A program made the translations under genes and the position numbers. This document shows positions 1,772 to 21,288 of a stretch of 36,323 nucleotides of DNA, piece after piece; position 1 is the stretch's first letter, and the number at the start of each line of letters is the position of its first letter. The notes beneath the pieces were generated by a model. That model searched no databases and was not told the origin of the DNA. It saw only the letters and a program-made list of their open reading frames with translations. The DNA comes from Dysosmobacter sp. (lineage in GTDB: Bacteria > Bacillota > Clostridia > Oscillospirales > Oscillospiraceae). Location: positions 1 through 36,323 of the forward strand of contig JALFSO010000084.1 in assembly GCA_022778785.1 (NCBI GenBank), given 5' to 3'.

Positions 1772-4723
1772 TTATCCCAGCAGATAGCTGTACTTCGTCA
1801 GGACGGTAAGGATGAATACCTCCATCTCCGCGGGCAGGTCGTTCTGCTCGTCCAGATCGGCCTCGAAGACCTTGCCGCCCAGCCGGACCAGCACCTTGCG
1901 GCCGCCCAGGGGCAGGAAGCCCTGATTCTTCTCGCTCTCGTCGAAGCCCTTCCGGGTCAGGAACAGGGTGAACTTATCCCGGTAGGGGGCGGAGTCGTAG
2001 GGGCAGAACACGGCGCAGTTGCCGCACTCGTTGCACATCCGGTCCACATGGAGGATCTGATGGCGGCCGTCGGGCAGCTCAATGACCACATTGGCCCGGT
2101 TGGGGCATACGTCGGCGCAGACCTGACACACCACGTTGCAGGTGAGGCAGCGGTCGCCCTCGCACTTGGCGGACTCGCACAGGATGCCCTTCTTGGCGAT
2201 GGCGTCCGCCCGGCTGGCTTTGGCGTGGGCGGGGATGGCGTACTTGTGGGCCTCGCCGATGACGGCGTTGGCGAACCAGGTGGCGTCGGCGATGCCCTCC
2301 ACCACCGTGGCGGGGCCCCGCATGGCGTCGCCGCCCACGTAGACGCCGTCCAGATTGGTCCGGAAGGCGGGAACGCCCTTCTCATCCACCTCAATGCCGT
2401 TGGCGGTGAACAACTCCGACTCCACCTTCTCTCCCACGGCGGAGATGACGGTGTCGCAGGGGATGGAGACCGTCTCGCCGGTGGGGACGGGCTTCCGGCG
2501 GCCCTTTTCGTCCGGATCGCCCAGACGCATCTTCTCGCAGATCAGCGCGCCGTCCTTCTGCTCCACAGGCGCCACCAGCTCCAGGAACTGCACGCCGTCG
2601 GCCATGGCCAGTTCCAGCTCCTCGGCGTCGGCGGGCATGTACTTCTTGGTGCGGCGGTAGACTAGGGTGGAGGACTTGGCCCCGGCCCGGAGGGCGGCAC
2701 GGGCGGCATCCATGGCGGTGTTGCCGCCGCCCACCACGGCCACGTGGCCCAGGGACACGTCCTTTCCGGCCTTCAGATCTTTCAGCCAGCCGATGACCGG
2801 CACCACATTGCCGGGGATGTCCAGCCGACCGGCCTTCCAGGCGCCCACGGCGAAGAAAATGTGGGTGTAGCCCTGGGCCTTCAGCTCCGCCACGGAGGGG
2901 GCGGGAGTGTTCAGCCGCACCTGGACGCCCATCCGGAACATCAGGGCCACGTCCCTGTCGATGGCCTCATCGGAGATGCGGAAGGAGGGGATCACCTGGC
3001 GGACCACGCCGCCCAGGCAGTTGGCCTTCTCAAAGATGGTGACGGGGATGCCTGCCCGGCCCAGGAAATAGGCGGCGGACATGCCGGTGGGGCCGCCGCC
3101 GATGACGGCCACCTTGCGGCCGTCCGTGACGGGCACGGGCTGGGGCAGCTTTGCCAGCAGGGCGTCGTAGCCCCGCTGGGCGGCCACCAGCTTGGTGGCC
3201 CGGATCTGCACCGGCTCCTCGTAGAAGTTCCGGGTGCATTTCGTCATGCAGCGGTGGGCGCAGATGGTGCCGGTAATGAAAGGCAGGGGGTTCTTCTCCG
3301 TGATGAGCTGCAAGGCGGCGGCGTACTGTCCCCGGCGGCACAGCTCGATGTACTCCGGAATGTCCTGCTGGATGGGGCAGCCGCCCTTGCAGGGTGCGGT
3401 GAAGCAGTCCGTCAGGGGGACTTTGTCGTACAGCTTCCGGCGGGGCAGGGGCTTCACGGCCTTGAGGTGGTACTTGTCGGACCGGGCGGCCAGGGCCAGC
3501 GCCTCGATGCCGGCCACGTCCACGCCGGTGAAGGGCCGGAATTCCATGGCGTCCAGCTTGTCGCCGATCTGGACGAACCGCTGGTAGCCGCCGGGCTTCA
3601 GCTCTGTGGTGGCCATGGTGATGGGCCAGATGCCGCAGGCGAACAGCTTGTCGATGTTGAAGGCGTCGGCGCCGCCGGCGTAGGAGATCCGTAGCTTTCC
3701 GCCGAACTCTTTGGAGATCCGGGCGGCCATGGTGGTGGTCAGGGGGAACAGGCTCTTGCCCGCCATGTACATCTCCTCGCTGGGCAGTTCGCGGTTCTTC
3801 ACGTCCACCGGGAAGGTGTTGCTGAGCTTCAGACCGAATTCCAGCCCGTGGCGCTGAGCCAGTTCCAGCAGGCGATGGAACATGGGGACGGCGTCCTCAT
3901 ATTGCAGGTCCTCGTTGAAGTGATGCTCGTCAAAGGCGATGTAGTCGTAGCCCATGCCGTCCAGAATGGACCGGGCGGTGTCGTAGCCCAGAATGGTGGG
4001 GTTGCACTTGACGAAGGTGTGGAGATGCTTCTTCTCAATGAGGTAGCTGGCGATGCGCTCGATCTCGTCCGGCGGGCAGCCGTGGAGGGTGGACACCGTC
4101 ACGCTGCCGGAGATGCGGGGACTGATGGCATCGATGTAGCCGCTCTCCTGGGGGAAGAATTCCTTCAGGACCCGGATGCACTCCCGGAAAATGGGCGTCT
4201 GAGAGGCGTCCATCATGCCGTTGAGGAAGGTGTCGATCTTCTCACCCTGGATGCCCGCCAGATCGTAACCCACGGACATGTTGAACACGAAGCCGTTGGG
4301 GTCGCCCAGGCCGTAGACCTTGGACATGATCTTCAGGGCACACCAGGCCTTGACGTACTCCTCAAAGGCCTGCTGAACATACAGCTCCGTGGACCACTCG
4401 CAGTTGTAGCACTCGTCCTCCGCCAGGATGCAGGGACGGTTGATGCAGGCGGCCAGCTCGGAGCCGTCCATCTTCTGGACGGTTTTCAGCTCAAAGAACC
4501 GGGCGCCGGCGAAGTATCCGGCGATGATGTTCTGGGCTAACTGGGTGTTGGGACCGGCGGCGGGGCCGAAGGGCGTCTCAATGGTCTCACCGAAGATGGG
4601 CAGCTTCTTGACGCCCGCCCGGTAGGGCTTGTGGACGCCGAAGACGGCGCCATCCCGGAGGTACTCCGTGGTGATCCAGTTCATCAGATCCCGGAAGGGG
4701 ATAGGGGTCATCAGTTCACTCAT
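1772..4723 (-). CDS. ygfK: YgfK-type FAD/Fe-S oxidoreductase (putative selenate reductase subunit family)
   Basis: A 983-residue multidomain oxidoreductase. The N-terminal half resembles a dihydroorotate/dihydropyrimidine dehydrogenase-type barrel. A GltD-like part follows, with a cysteine cluster CTAPCKGGCP near residue 440, an FAD motif VIGGGPTGMSAAYF near 540 and an NAD(P)H motif VVGGGNTAMDAA near 660. Two 4Fe-4S motifs lie near 860-910 (CNVVCQVCADVCP and CNECGNCAVFCP). This order matches the YgfK family, named from selenium-dependent molybdenum hydroxylase clusters and later tied to anaerobic purine/urate breakdown; its exact reaction is unsettled. ATG at 4723 is preceded by GGGAGG; an upstream in-frame TTG at 4744 is less likely. 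It follows ssnA, its usual partner. No molybdenum hydroxylase subunits are in view. Confidence 0.93.
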   Translation of the reverse strand: MSELMTPIPFRDLMNWITTEYLRDGAVFGVHKPYRAGVKKLPIFGETIETPFGPAAGPNTQLAQNIIAGYFAGARFFELKTVQKMDGSELAACINRPCILAEDECYNCEWSTELYVQQAFEEYVKAWCALKIMSKVYGLGDPNGFVFNMSVGYDLAGIQGEKIDTFLNGMMDASQTPIFRECIRVLKEFFPQESGYIDAISPRISGSVTVSTLHGCPPDEIERIASYLIEKKHLHTFVKCNPTILGYDTARSILDGMGYDYIAFDEHHFNEDLQYEDAVPMFHRLLELAQRHGLEFGLKLSNTFPVDVKNRELPSEEMYMAGKSLFPLTTTMAARISKEFGGKLRISYAGGADAFNIDKLFACGIWPITMATTELKPGGYQRFVQIGDKLDAMEFRPFTGVDVAGIEALALAARSDKYHLKAVKPLPRRKLYDKVPLTDCFTAPCKGGCPIQQDIPEYIELCRRGQYAAALQLITEKNPLPFITGTICAHRCMTKCTRNFYEEPVQIRATKLVAAQRGYDALLAKLPQPVPVTDGRKVAVIGGGPTGMSAAYFLGRAGIPVTIFEKANCLGGVVRQVIPSFRISDEAIDRDVALMFRMGVQVRLNTPAPSVAELKAQGYTHIFFAVGAWKAGRLDIPGNVVPVIGWLKDLKAGKDVSLGHVAVVGGGNTAMDAARAALRAGAKSSTLVYRRTKKYMPADAEELELAMADGVQFLELVAPVEQKDGALICEKMRLGDPDEKGRRKPVPTGETVSIPCDTVISAVGEKVESELFTANGIEVDEKGVPAFRTNLDGVYVGGDAMRGPATVVEGIADATWFANAVIGEAHKYAIPAHAKASRADAIAKKGILCESAKCEGDRCLTCNVVCQVCADVCPNRANVVIELPDGRHQILHVDRMCNECGNCAVFCPYDSAPYRDKFTLFLTRKGFDESEKNQGFLPLGGRKVLVRLGGKVFEADLDEQNDLPAEMEVFILTVLTKYSYLLG

Positions 4724-4808
4724 AGCAGTTGATCCTCCCTGCAATAGAAATTAGGAATTGGAAAATTGGAAGTCAGGCGCAGCGGCATTCTGCCCGGCGG
4801 AATTGATC

Positions 4809-4935
4809 GGAATCATTTTTCCGGCGGCGTGTACGTCGGAAAAATACATTGACTCAGCCGCCTTGGGCGGCGTTCACCAGTGACCGACGTCACTGGTGGG
4901 GGGGAATCTAAAGGGGGGACGAAGTCCCCTCTTTA
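4809..4935 (-). repeat. structured intergenic repeat, copy 1
   Basis: About 127 bp, nearly identical to 9680-9807. It folds into four consecutive hairpins: ATTTTTCCG/CGGAAAAAT, GCCGCC/GGCGGC, ACCAGTGAC (4876-4884)/GTCACTGGT (4889-4897), and AAAGGGGGGAC (4910-4920)/GTCCCCTCTTT (4924-4934). The last hairpin overlaps the ssnA stop codon and looks terminator-like on the minus strand. The unit lies between ssnA and ygfK, so it either separates them or forms an internal processing or attenuation site. The gap 4724-4808 shows no other feature. Confidence 0.85.
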
Positions 4936-6276
4936 ATATTCTCTATGGTTCAGCCGTCCCCACAGCCGCTTGGCGCTCTCCAGAATGTGGGCGTTGACGG
5001 TCTCCTCGTCGATCTCCGTCAGGACCCGGTCCCGCATCAGGATCTTACCGTTGATCATGGTGGTCTGGCACTGACGGCCCGTCATGCCGAAGATCATGTG
5101 GCCGTCGATGTTGGCGTCGGAGAAGGGCGTGTAGGGCTTGTAGTCCATGACGATGACGTCCGCCGCCGCGCCGGGCTTCAGCACGCCCAGCGTGGGGAAG
5201 CCGCACCGCTCCGCCATCCTGGCGTTGTTCTTGAAGAGCATATCCGTCACCTCGCACCAGGCCACGTTGGGCAGGCAGGCGTTGTGCCGCTGGGAGCAGA
5301 GGGCCACCTTCAGGGATTCCAGCATGTCATTGGTGTAGGCGTCGGTGCCCATGCCGATGAGGATGCCCTTCTTGTACAGCTGCAAAACCGGGGAGATGCC
5401 CACGGCGTTGCCCATGTTGCTCTCCGGATTGTTGACGCACATGGTGTCCGTGGCCTTGATGATGTCCATTTCGGCGGTGTTCACGTGGATGCAGTGGCCC
5501 AGAATGGTCTTCGGCCCCAGAATGCCGTGGTCCTGAAGCCGCTGGACGGGACGGCGGCCGTAGTTCTGGAGGGAGTCGTACACGTCGTTCATGCCCTCGG
5601 ACACGTGGATGTGGTAGCCCACCCGGCCGTTGTTGGCGGCAGCCATCCGGTCGAAGGTCCTGTCGGAGATGGTGAACAGGGCGTGTCCGCCGAACATGGC
5701 CTTCAGCATGTCGGAGGGATTCTTCTCGCAGTAATCGATGAAGTCCTTGTTCTCCTGGACGGATTGGAGGGACTTCTCCTCGCCGTCCCGGTCGCTGACC
5801 TCGTAGCACAGGCTGGCCCGCATGCCGAACGCCTGCGTCACCTCGGCAATCTTCATCAGGGAGCCGGGGATCTCGCAGAAGGAGGCATGGTGGTCAAAGA
5901 TGGTAGTGACGCCCTGCTTGATGCTGTCGATGACAAGGGCCTGGGCGCTGGCCTTCGTGGCCTCCAGGTCCAGATTCCGGTCAATAGCCCACCAGGTGCC
6001 GTCCAGCACCTCATAGAAGTTGGTGGGGTTGTTGCCCACGATGCTGAGGCCTCGAGCCAGGGCGGAATAGATGTGGGTGTGGGCGTTGATGAGGCCGGGC
6101 ATGATGACGCCGCCCCGGGCGTCCACGAACTCGGCCTGGGGGTATTTGGCCTTCAGGTCGGCGGTGACGCCGACTTCCACGATTTTTCCGCCGTCGGTGA
6201 CCACGCCGCCGTCCGGCAGATAGCCCGCACCGTCGGGGTCCCGGGTGATGACCTTTCCGTTTGCCAGTAAAATCAT
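4933..6276 (-). CDS. ssnA: SsnA-type metal-dependent aminohydrolase
   Basis: A 447-residue member of the amidohydrolase superfamily (chlorohydrolase/guanine-deaminase-like). The barrel metal ligands are visible: H66 and H68 in NAHTHIYS, H224 in YHIHVSEG, H261 in LGHCIHV and D312 in MGTDAYTND. Sequence and neighbour match SsnA, the putative aminohydrolase that co-occurs with ygfK in selenium-dependent purine hydroxylase and anaerobic urate-degradation clusters. The exact substrate is not established; hydrolysis of a purine-derived ring is the likely role. ATG at 6276 has GGGAGG seven bases upstream. It is the first gene of a minus-strand unit, followed by an intergenic repeat and then ygfK. 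A leader with competing hairpins (6351-6450) precedes it, so transcription attenuation is likely. Confidence 0.93.
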   Translation of the reverse strand: MILLANGKVITRDPDGAGYLPDGGVVTDGGKIVEVGVTADLKAKYPQAEFVDARGGVIMPGLINAHTHIYSALARGLSIVGNNPTNFYEVLDGTWWAIDRNLDLEATKASAQALVIDSIKQGVTTIFDHHASFCEIPGSLMKIAEVTQAFGMRASLCYEVSDRDGEEKSLQSVQENKDFIDYCEKNPSDMLKAMFGGHALFTISDRTFDRMAAANNGRVGYHIHVSEGMNDVYDSLQNYGRRPVQRLQDHGILGPKTILGHCIHVNTAEMDIIKATDTMCVNNPESNMGNAVGISPVLQLYKKGILIGMGTDAYTNDMLESLKVALCSQRHNACLPNVAWCEVTDMLFKNNARMAERCGFPTLGVLKPGAAADVIVMDYKPYTPFSDANIDGHMIFGMTGRQCQTTMINGKILMRDRVLTEIDEETVNAHILESAKRLWGRLNHREY

Positions 6277-6350: not shown

Positions 6351-6450
6351 AAAAAAGGCGTCTCAGACCATCCTCAGTCTGAAACACCTATCCGCGCAAA
6401 GGAAGATAGGTGTCAGCCCGTGCGCGCGGCACTCCGTTGCAGCTATCCAT
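6351..6450 (-). promoter_or_regulatory. attenuator or riboswitch-like leader of ssnA
   Basis: On the minus strand three helices compete. First, GATAGCTG (6447-6440) can pair with CACCTATC (6412-6405) with one C-C mismatch. Second, ACACCTATC (6413-6405) can pair with GATAGGTGT (6392-6384). Third, GGTGTTTCAGAC (6388-6377) pairs with GTCTGAGACGCC (6368-6357) and is followed by six U: a clear terminator. Helix 2 shares bases with both others, so forming helix 1 would free the terminator. This is riboswitch or attenuator logic; I do not recognise the aptamer class. A 20-codon open frame spans helices 1 and 2, so a leader-peptide mechanism is an alternative. Confidence 0.65.
6388..6450 (-). CDS. 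possible 20-residue leader peptide of ssnA
   Basis: ATG at 6450 opens a 20-codon frame ending in TAG at 6390-6388, inside the 3' arm of the antiterminator helix. The frame covers exactly the sequence that folds. No strong ribosome site precedes it and no run of one amino acid is present. It may be chance in a riboswitch; it is listed because its position fits a translated attenuator. Confidence 0.2.
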   Translation of the reverse strand: MDSCNGVPRARADTYLPLRG

Positions 6451-6466
6451 CTTTGCTTGTATTTGT

Positions 6467-6495
6467 ATTTTACCGTAAACCGGGACAAAATGCAA
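6467..6495 (-). promoter_or_regulatory. promoter of the ssnA leader
   Basis: On the minus strand TTGCAT (6495-6490), a 17-bp spacer and TAAAAT (6472-6467) fit a sigma-A promoter. The transcript would begin about ten bases before the first arm of the leader structure, which suits a cis-acting RNA. Confidence 0.6.
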
Positions 6496-8075: not shown

Positions 8076-8735
8076 ATGAAACAACTCTTTTCCCACGCAC
8101 AGGACCCCATCAGCTGTGAGACCCACGCCCTGGGGGCGGCGGCCTCCTTTGCTGGAGGGCTTCTGTTTCTCCTGCGGGCGGTGTACAGCGGCGCCGGAAT
8201 GACGGCACTGGCGGCGGCTATGTGCTTTGCGCTGTCCCTGATGGCCCTGTACTTTTCCAGCGCCCTCTATCACTACTATCCCGGCACGGCGGACAGCGGC
8301 GGCGTGAAGCGGCTGCTACGGAAGCTGGATCACAGCATGATCTACGTCCTCATCGCCGGCAGCTACACGCCCTTCTGCGCGGTGCTGCTGCCCCAGCCCA
8401 AGGGCCTGCGGTTCTGCCTCGGCATCTGGTGCGTGGCGGTGGCGGGCGTGCTGATGAAGGTCTTCTGGCTGAACGCCCCCAGAGTGCTGTCCACGGCCAT
8501 ATACCTCATCATGGGCTGGTCGGTGCTGTTCATCTTTCCGGATTTCCTCCGGGTGGGGCAGCCCTGTGTGACGCTGGTGGCGCTGGGGGGACTGTGTTAT
8601 TCCGTGGGGGCGGTGTTCTACGCCGTCAAGCGGCCCAATCTCAGCCCGGACTGGACCTTCCACGAGCTGTTCCATCTGCTGATCCTGGCCGGATCGCTGT
8701 TCCACTATCTGGCCGTGTTCTTCTGTGTATTGTGA
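8076..8735 (+). CDS. hemolysin III family (PAQR-like) membrane protein
   Basis: A 219-residue, seven-helix integral membrane protein of the HlyIII/PAQR superfamily. The family's three conserved metal-site elements are present: SSALYH at 61-66, LDHSMIYVLIAGSYTPF with D85-H86, and HELFH with H196 and H200 near the C-terminus. The family is related to adiponectin receptors; bacterial members are often named hemolysin III, but a hydrolase-like, zinc-dependent role in the membrane is thought more likely. AAGGAG sits seven bases before the ATG. Ten bases downstream lies a second copy of the family, so the two are co-transcribed. The identity is clear, the physiological substrate unknown. Confidence 0.92.
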   Translation: MKQLFSHAQDPISCETHALGAAASFAGGLLFLLRAVYSGAGMTALAAAMCFALSLMALYFSSALYHYYPGTADSGGVKRLLRKLDHSMIYVLIAGSYTPFCAVLLPQPKGLRFCLGIWCVAVAGVLMKVFWLNAPRVLSTAIYLIMGWSVLFIFPDFLRVGQPCVTLVALGGLCYSVGAVFYAVKRPNLSPDWTFHELFHLLILAGSLFHYLAVFFCVL

Positions 8736-8745
8736 GGTGGCAAGT

Positions 8746-9453
8746 ATGAATCCCATGACTGCGGACACCTCTGCCTGCGCGGCGGCCCGGCTCCGAGCGG
8801 TGCGCCGTGCCCGGACCCGCGCACTGAACGAGCCGCCCCGGCTGACGGTGCCGGAGGAGATCGTCAACGCCGTCACCCATGGCGTGGGTGCCGCTCTGGC
8901 GGTGGCGGTCTTCGTCCTGCTGCTGTTGAAGTCGGAGACGACGCTGGAGATTATCGCCTCCTGCTTCTACGGCATCAGCATGATGCTGATGATGCTGATG
9001 AGCTGCCTGTACCACGCCTTTCCCGCCGGTTCCACGGTGAAGCGCATCTGGCGGCGGTTTGACTACGCTTCCATCTACCTGCTGATCGGCGGCACCTTCG
9101 CCCCCATTCTGCTGGTGTATCTGGGAAACACGCTGGGCATCACCCTTTTCTGCATTCAGTGGGGCGTGATCCTGTCCGGCGTCACCCTCATCGCCGTGTT
9201 CGGACCGGGGAAGTGGCGGCCCCTGCACTTCACGCTGTACTTCCTCATCGGCTGGAGCGGCCTGCTGTTCCTGCCGGACTTCTACCGCAACGCCCGGACG
9301 CTGCTGTGGTTCATTCTGGCGGGCGGACTGGTGTACACCCTGGGGATGATCCCCTTTGCCCGGAACCGGAAGTGGAATCACTGCGTCTGGCACGTGCTGG
9401 TGCTGGCCGCCGCAGCCATCCACTGGCTGGGCATCTACGGACTGATCTACTGA
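8746..9453 (+). CDS. hemolysin III family membrane protein, second copy
   Basis: A 235-residue paralogue of the preceding gene with about 35 extra, Arg- and Ala-rich residues at the N-terminus, probably cytoplasmic. Conserved elements: SCLYH at 86-90, FDYASIYLLIGGTFAP with D106, and HCVWH with H212 and H216. The His that follows the Asp in the first copy (D85-H86) is Tyr here (D106-Y107). ATG 8746 has GAGGTGG nearby; an upstream in-frame start at 8725 would overlap the previous gene and is less likely. The pair may have arisen by old duplication, since similarity outside motifs is modest, or may form a hetero-oligomer; both are inference. Confidence 0.92.
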   Translation: MNPMTADTSACAAARLRAVRRARTRALNEPPRLTVPEEIVNAVTHGVGAALAVAVFVLLLLKSETTLEIIASCFYGISMMLMMLMSCLYHAFPAGSTVKRIWRRFDYASIYLLIGGTFAPILLVYLGNTLGITLFCIQWGVILSGVTLIAVFGPGKWRPLHFTLYFLIGWSGLLFLPDFYRNARTLLWFILAGGLVYTLGMIPFARNRKWNHCVWHVLVLAAAAIHWLGIYGLIY

Positions 9454-20778: not shown

Positions 20779-20855
20779 GGGAGCATAGCTCAGCTGGTTA
20801 GAGCACCTGCCTTACAAGCAGGGGGTCACTGGTTCGAGTCCAGTTGTTCCCACCA
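20779..20855 (+). tRNA. tRNA-Val (anticodon TAC)
   Basis: GGGAGCA acceptor arm pairs with TGTTCCC, the T-loop is GGTTCGAGTCC, the anticodon loop CTTACAA gives TAC at 20813-20815, and CCA is encoded at 20853-20855. Confidence 0.97.
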
Positions 20856-20880
20856 CTCAATGCGTCGGATGAAGGAAAAT

Positions 20881-20957
20881 GGCCCGGTAGTTCAGTTGGT
20901 TAGAACGCTAGCCTGTCACGCTAGAGGTCGACGGTTCGAGCCCGTTCCGGGTCGCCA
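20881..20957 (+). tRNA. tRNA-Asp (anticodon GTC)
   Basis: GGCCCGG pairs with CCGGGTC, T-loop GGTTCGAGCCC, anticodon GTC at 20915-20917, CCA encoded. Confidence 0.97.
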
Positions 20958-20960
20958 TTT

Positions 20961-21036
<76 letters not shown>

Positions 21037-21039
21037 TTT

Positions 21040-21115
21040 GCGGGCATAGCTCATCTGGTAGAGCGCCACCTTGCCAAGGTGGAGGTAGCGAGTTCGAGCC
21101 TCGTTGCCCGCTCCA
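21040..21115 (+). tRNA. tRNA-Gly (anticodon GCC)
   Basis: GCGGGCA pairs with TGCCCGC, anticodon GCC at 21073-21075, CCA encoded at 21113-21115. Confidence 0.97.
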
Positions 21116-21152
21116 TTTGAAAAGATCACACGCCGGTGTGATCTTTTCAAAT
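21115..21152. terminator. 17-bp perfect hairpin between tRNA-Gly and tRNA-Cys
   Basis: ATTTGAAAAGATCACAC (21115-21131) and GTGTGATCTTTTCAAAT (21136-21152) pair without mismatch around a GCCG loop. The T run lies inside the stem, so termination may be partial; it could also be an RNA-processing site. The left arm begins on the last base of the tRNA-Gly CCA. A TATAAT at 21161-21166 just after it could start a separate tRNA-Cys transcript. Confidence 0.55.
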
Positions 21153-21213
21153 GGGGAGCATATAATTCATGTGGGCTCTGATCAAGACCGCATTTCTGAT
21201 AGATCGTTTCCTT

Positions 21214-21288
21214 GGTGACATAGCCAAGTGGTAAGGCAAGGGTCTGCAAAACCCTGATTCCCCGGTTCAAATCCGGGTGTCACCTCCA
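21214..21288 (+). tRNA. tRNA-Cys (anticodon GCA)
   Basis: GGTGACA pairs with TGTCACC, T-loop GGTTCAAATCC, anticodon loop TCTGCAA with GCA at 21246-21248, CCA encoded. Confidence 0.96.

Follow-up and report, generated by a model that had tools for sequence, protein, structure and literature searches.

What kind of RNA precedes ssnA in this Dysosmobacter sp., and in which direction does it switch the gene, are the questions raised by a leader on the minus strand of the window, by which is meant the whole 36,323-nt stretch of DNA analysed here. An earlier note on this DNA had described the leader as a three-way switch, with helix 1 closing a sensing domain, an alternative helix 2 and a terminator, and had held that its small first domain matches no class known to the author of the note.

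Identity and parts of the ssnA leader

A scan with the Rfam covariance models (cmscan) assigns positions 6452-6405 of the minus strand to RF03031, "ssnA RNA", with 59.6 bits (E 3.2e-14) against a gathering cut-off of 37.3 bits, and the Rfam alignment covers positions 1-48 of the 48-position model. The earlier note had itself named a hit to an existing family as the result that would overturn its label of unassigned, and that label is therefore withdrawn. RF03031 is a curated family of type cis-reg, and its defining features, stems P1 and P2 with the conserved junction and a position in cis before ssnA, are all found in the window, where the aptamer shows no difference from the family. The only other match at E up to 1 was a weak and unrelated one to RF01067 (E 0.9), below its own cut-off, and no other known aptamer scored above cut-off in the leader within that limit. 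Judged by sequence comparison, the leader is thus a member of an orphan cis-regulatory family known from gut bacteria. The first description of ssnA RNA is reportedly that of Weinberg et al. in 2017; no ligand was found in the literature searched, which did not include that description and does not establish absence in print. The Rfam model stops before the expression platform, and what is new relative to RF03031 is that the switch logic, the tandem form and the ON sign are worked out. The features of the locus are as follows.

6467..6495, minus strand: promoter-like element, −35 TTGCAT (6495-6490), 17-nt spacer, −10 TAAAAT (6472-6467), read from sequence
6405..6452, minus strand: ssnA RNA (RF03031), whole 48-position model, cmscan 59.6 bits
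6443..6448, minus strand: OFF helix 5′ strand GGAUAG (helix 1 of the earlier note), its UAG common to P1
6441..6445, minus strand: P1 5′ strand UAGCU, from Rfam alignment and pair counts
6433..6440, minus strand: conserved junction GCAACGGA, candidate ligand pocket together with G 6419
6420..6432, minus strand: P2 hairpin GUGC/GCAC, from Rfam alignment and pair counts
6414..6418, minus strand: P1 3′ strand GGCUG, from Rfam alignment and pair counts
6405..6413, minus strand: antiterminator 5′ strand ACACCUAUC (helix 2 of the earlier note)
6404..6409, minus strand: OFF helix 3′ strand CUAUCU, its CUAUC common to the antiterminator
6384..6392, minus strand: antiterminator 3′ strand GAUAGGUGU, its AGGUGU common to the terminator
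6356..6389, minus strand: intrinsic terminator hairpin, U-rich tail from 6355
4933..6276, minus strand: ssnA, aminohydrolase SsnA, 447 aa (NF005540 612.2 bits, TIGR03314 539 bits)
1772..4744, minus strand: ygfK, open frame as listed with a provisional start position (TIGR03315 1305.7 bits)

Elsewhere in the window, two neighbouring open frames of the haemolysin III / TrhA family overlap slightly (8076-9453, plus strand), and five tRNA genes form a cluster (20779-21285, plus strand).

The promoter proposed at 6495-6467 is in place by sequence; it scores under the promoter-scan threshold, and among the 43 leaders built on the same plan, 35 have their best hexamer-scan match ending 14-15 nt before the RNA, as it does in the window. 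Sequence, folding and relatives also bear out helix 1, helix 2 and the terminator at the places given to them, with successive helices sharing bases. The terminator (6389-6356) has 14 pairs and −21.1 kcal/mol and is followed by the U-rich tail, and the whole leader folds at −43.8 kcal/mol compared with −33.4 kcal/mol (sd 3.6) for dinucleotide shuffles (z −2.88), 2 of 200 of which fold as well. Overlooked in the earlier note was a further stem, UAGCU (6445-6441) with GGCUG (6418-6414), which is P1 and competes with helix 1. Since helix 1 takes UAG from P1, the two are mutually exclusive, and since it is the conserved stem that uses the same UAG, helix 1 is read as a competing OFF helix. The mutually exclusive structures ending in gene control that define a riboswitch are thus found in the leader at the level of sequence and folding. 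The P2 loop of the window ends in GC (6424-6425), with G in 76 and C in 77 of 77 leaders, so that a second P2 register (GUGC/GCGC) is possible; it appears in the predicted OFF folds of second tandem copies.

Distribution, architectures and conserved helices

Matches to RF03031 occur in 78 of 300 genomes sampled from the window's family. They fall at 79 places, of which two (L082 and L084; weak, without ssnA and taken as chance) were dropped to leave 77 leaders. By this comparison the link to the gene is close: ssnA is next downstream in 75 of the 77, at a distance of 45-383 nt, the exceptions being L075, which precedes other genes, and L079, which runs off its contig. Where the next gene can be read it is thus ssnA in 75/76 leaders and an NfnAB-like gene in 1/76. 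Lists compared by eye show the RNA in 73 of the 89 genomes that bear ssnA over cut-off, and one of the other 16 (G196) has a divergent copy before ssnA (L097). As in the window, ygfK follows ssnA in all 20 representatives checked. Among 391 genomes sampled from the class, none passed the cut-off except the window's own (weak matches L032-L036, without ssnA, were dropped), and among 394 from the order 16 passed, one of them (G955) from another family, with the weak match L248 dropped. A scan of named genomes gave at least 80 loci, including Oscillibacter, Dysosmobacter, Intestinimonas, Pseudoflavonifractor, Gemmiger and Fournierella massiliensis. Among the matches listed from that scan, an ssnA start lies within 500 nt in 72 of 80; L146, L156, L182, L194 and L198 offer too little DNA, the ssnA start being visible in L182; in L154 the leader and the gene start match those of L075; and in L176 and L187 a different gene comes next.

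The few other neighbours are of some interest in themselves. Genome G287 has a second RNA copy before NfnAB-like genes (PRK06222 393.7 bits, gltA 588 bits; L105:2283-4618, minus strand), towards which a carbamate kinase gene runs, and L154 carries the same leader. In L187 a DUF6198 membrane protein of unknown function begins 82 nt after the pattern start; in L176 a frame beginning like that of L187, at the same 82 nt, turns into another protein in the present assembly.

Beyond the aptamer the leaders fall into three architectures. Type A, with OFF helix, antiterminator and terminator, comprises 43 of 77 leaders including the window's; in type B (15 of 77, from nine genera, none the window's) the terminator stem holds aptamer bases; and in type C (17 of 77, assigned by eye) an antiterminator strand lies behind P1. 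L060 and L073, where the terminator merely abuts P1, fit no type. The automatic terminator finder had returned 43 leaders of type A, 19 overlapping, 13 of type C and 2 without a terminator. Ten terminators (L023, L038, L060, L062, L066, L069, L071, L072, L080 and L083) were set by hand from the sequence because the finder took a long-range or over-extended hairpin or nothing, after which L060, L062, L066, L073 and L083 left the overlapping class and L071 joined it, giving 15. A later automatic classifier, which called 26 of 77 "direct", was not used, as in several leaders of type A it had called a terminator where the OFF helix is followed by an early U-rich stretch. Inspection by eye of the very short leader L151 (Subdoligranulum MAG) showed no terminator before ssnA and, shortly behind P1, a ribosome-binding site; control there may be at translation. 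From shuffles, a TGT-N9-ACA motif between promoter and RNA would be expected in 0.6 of the 34 non-A leaders and in 0.8 of the 43 of type A; it is present in 11 and 1, respectively. In leaders of types B and C it mostly stands 12-30 nt ahead of the RNA, and it is perhaps an operator or a further part of the RNA. A complementarity between upstream CUGUGC and aptamer GCACGG was dropped because by eye it varies without compensation.

The alignment used for pair counts holds 78 leaders (the 77 plus L097), 71 of them distinct. Of the 639 cells of P1 and P2 in these, 97.5% are paired. Both bases have changed in 15 cells, a figure that none of 500 shuffles attained, and the covariation score also exceeded every shuffle; the number of two-sided-change pairs and pair types was not above shuffles (211/500). 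P2 is paired in 100% of cells, 10 of which go from C-G to U-A, and P1 pairs are altered on both sides in the divergent L097 and in first tandem copies, as read from the sequences. Hardly any variation is seen in the junction, where model positions 13, 15, 16, 18 and 20 are identical in all 77 leaders. Helix 1, put forward as the stem of the sensing domain, does not hold that role, as it keeps 69.0% of its pairs over the same 71 distinct leaders compared with 97.5% for P1 and P2. Over these leaders it also beat most shuffles, with slid versions (−3, +2 and +3 columns) nearly equal on some measures. In type A it is kept in 97.6% of cells, and from its sequence distribution it is a part of this one architecture. 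Metabolite aptamers usually combine a strictly conserved junction with varied expression platforms and tandem units, and the same combination in ssnA RNA argues, not decisively, against a reading in which a protein binds the conserved hairpin as antiterminator or attenuator and the RNA binds no small molecule. The small size of the element (48 nt) would suit such a protein, and none of the computed results shows ligand binding, but on balance the protein reading is unlikely. The 20-codon frame for which a leader-peptide mechanism had been left open is present in the window, but of the 77 leaders the window's is the only one with a start codon and open frame at the start place of that frame, where the count was made, and attenuation by a leader peptide can be given hardly any weight.

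The claim that mutually exclusive helices form a switching leader ahead of ssnA fared better, being conserved in sister leaders. For the subtype of the window, 20 distinct leaders chosen for carrying GGGCTGACACC, standard pairs are kept in 96.1% of cells for helix 1, 97.5% for helix 2 and 100% for the terminator. Both whole structures, OFF helix with P2 and terminator and P1 with P2 and antiterminator, are kept in 98.7% of cells in these 20, compared with 27-48% when partners are slid by 1-3 columns. Selection by GGGCTGACACC itself fixes P1 and part of the antiterminator (helix 2) 5′ strand, and with many pairs invariant this support is therefore one of conservation more than covariation. The antiterminator of other type A leaders, CACUC/GAGUG, is kept in 95.6% of cells with weak covariation.

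Proposed mechanism and the sign of the switch

The reading favoured here, at slightly better than an even chance, is that the leader is a transcriptional ON switch of the RF03031 family that would rest in the OFF helix without ligand and pass to P1/P2 and antitermination with a purine of the urate pathway. Comparison establishes the family, the conserved helices with their mutual exclusion and the link to the genes; that the RNA is a riboswitch, which sign it has in this particular leader and what it binds are inferences. In the absence of ligand GGAUAG would pair with CUAUCU to form the OFF helix, which would tie up the antiterminator strand and open the aptamer stem P1, so that the terminator could form and ssnA-ygfK would be silent. 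A small molecule, for which urate, 2,8-dioxopurine (yanthine) and purines close to them in the reductive urate pathway are the likeliest candidates, would on binding in the conserved junction fix P1 (UAGCU/GGCUG) and P2. The OFF helix would then be blocked and CUAUC left free for GAUAGGUGU, a pairing that would prevent the terminator.

The earlier note had not settled on a sign for the switch; the build of the leaders suggests that a bound small molecule switches the genes on. In type B the same strands can pair either in the aptamer or in the terminator, an overlap matched by at most 14 of 500 shuffles in 12 of 15 leaders; in L065, L076 and L077 it spans 4-5 nt and is not significant against shuffles. 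Two ssnA RNA units in series, their starts about 130-170 nt apart before ssnA, are found in Gemmiger An87, An194 and An50, in Fournierella massiliensis and in one MAG (L136, L159, L197, L208 and L198; also L247/L249 of G955, which resembles An194); of the five loci, four are close relatives. The terminator could be examined in 9 of the 10 tandem copies, and in all nine the P1/pocket 5′ strand pairs with the terminator 3′ arm through 8-11 of positions 8-18, with at most 12 of 500 shuffles as good for each copy. Because aptamer and terminator exclude one another in type B and in the tandem leaders, binding of a ligand there would prevent termination, which is the behaviour of an ON switch. Transcription-terminating ON riboswitches, single or tandem, include the guanidine-I and glycine classes. 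The mutual exclusion of aptamer and terminator is common to them and the ssnA RNA leaders, and two complete units in series are likewise seen in tandem ON riboswitches as in Gemmiger and Fournierella, a likeness for which no sequence relationship to guanidine-I or glycine riboswitches is shown.

For type A the evidence comes from folding. With the aptamer forced, these leaders shift to antitermination by a mean of −1.4 kcal/mol compared with +0.9 kcal/mol for shuffled flanks (60 flank shuffles per leader), and the coupling lies below shuffles in 38 of 43 leaders and 13 of 14 genus means (p 2.4e-4). Type C gave no significant coupling (11 of 17 leaders, p 0.31), and the signal was confined to type A; values for direct-overlap leaders were discarded, the measure being invalid where both structures cannot form together. 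Taken by itself, the window gives neutral folding measures and some contrary ones. Its coupling is −1.2 kcal/mol, which is not significant, 13 of 60 shuffles doing as well. In truncated folds the upstream occupancy of its terminator arm is 0.53 with the aptamer favoured and 0.64 without, contrary to the ON reading, and the same measure does not separate aptamer-favoured from free states across type A. Energies computed for the window, which count in favour of the ON reading, are −29.1 kcal/mol for the OFF state, −25.9 kcal/mol for the antiterminator without P1 and −21.9 kcal/mol for P1 with antiterminator, not every forced pair having formed. Across type A the energies are near balance, the OFF helix being more stable than the P1-free antiterminator in only 16 of the 41 leaders tested, which counts against that reading.

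The stability of the OFF state, higher in the window than that of the two other structures tested, would together with the retention of helix 1 in type A also suit an OFF riboswitch, in which the ligand stabilises a domain closed by helix 1, the terminator is free and ssnA is repressed by product feedback. A model for such a sign is the NMT1 xanthine/urate riboswitch, which, in the available portions of PMC8266621 and PMC7373994, is proteobacterial, is built of stems P1, P2a and P2b with junctions J1 and J2, and is an OFF switch that probably regulates translation. The likeness to ssnA RNA lies in a small hairpin with a conserved junction and in oxidised purines as known or suspected ligands; NMT1 differs in its P2a/P2b and J1/J2 build, its hosts and its sign, as far as those portions describe it, and its covariance model has no match in the window leader at E up to 1 (Rfam). 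The lower retention of helix 1 across the family, the exclusion of the terminator by the aptamer in type B and tandem leaders, and the simpler expectation that a degradative enzyme pair is induced rather than repressed by its purines all speak against the OFF riboswitch, which is improbable. All leader evidence together puts the ON sign at about two in three.

Candidate ligand and the reductive urate pathway

The link to purine breakdown drawn in the earlier note finds support in the downstream genes. According to the portions of PMC12507026 available, SsnA and YgfK convert yanthine (2,8-dioxopurine) to ureidomethyl-hydantoin in the reductive urate pathway, and a commentary (PMC12990295, likewise in part) states that urate induces ssnA and ygfK in gut bacteria. 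The window's own genome (G000) encodes YgeY (638.8 bits) and a selenium-dependent xanthine dehydrogenase (1326.8 bits). No diaminopropionate ammonia-lyase was found over cut-off in this genome, which is 95% complete, and the end of the pathway may differ there.

As to the ligand, the earlier note had offered a purine breakdown product or a signal related to molybdenum or selenium, and judged from the genes the purine is the better fit. The names of the SsnA and YgfK models refer to selenium metabolism, and a selenium-dependent xanthine dehydrogenase follows ygfK in L115, as another is present in the genome of the window. Against a molybdenum or selenium signal, the next genes in the 76 family leaders where they can be read are ssnA or, once, NfnAB-like, none of them a molybdenum or selenium gene, and the tested chemistry of SsnA and YgfK acts on a purine (PMC12507026, in the portions available), so that this alternative is highly unlikely. 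A signal from a substrate fits a switch that turns ssnA-ygfK on, and a purine of the urate pathway, namely urate, yanthine or dihydro-yanthine, is the probable ligand. The rare other targets, NfnAB-like genes beside a carbamate kinase gene and a DUF6198 protein, are compatible with a purine and do not contradict it. The fuller proposal, somewhat short of an even chance and put forward tentatively, is that ssnA RNA is an ON riboswitch and direct sensor of urate, 2,8-dioxopurine or its dihydro form, which would induce anaerobic uricolysis in Oscillospiraceae and relatives, with NfnAB-like supply of reductant in one genome and tandem forms in Gemmiger and Fournierella.

SsnA stands as a putative enzyme in the family libraries, and the urate pathway work of 2025 supplies its substrate. 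The switch logic predicts that ligand means ON. The two together reduce the candidate ligands to a few compounds, and the switch logic, the tandem form and the pathway link make the ligand question directly testable. If the ligand is indeed a urate-type purine, ssnA RNA would be a direct RNA sensor of gut uricolysis, with a bearing on hyperuricaemia and gout, and would provide a ready genetic sensor.
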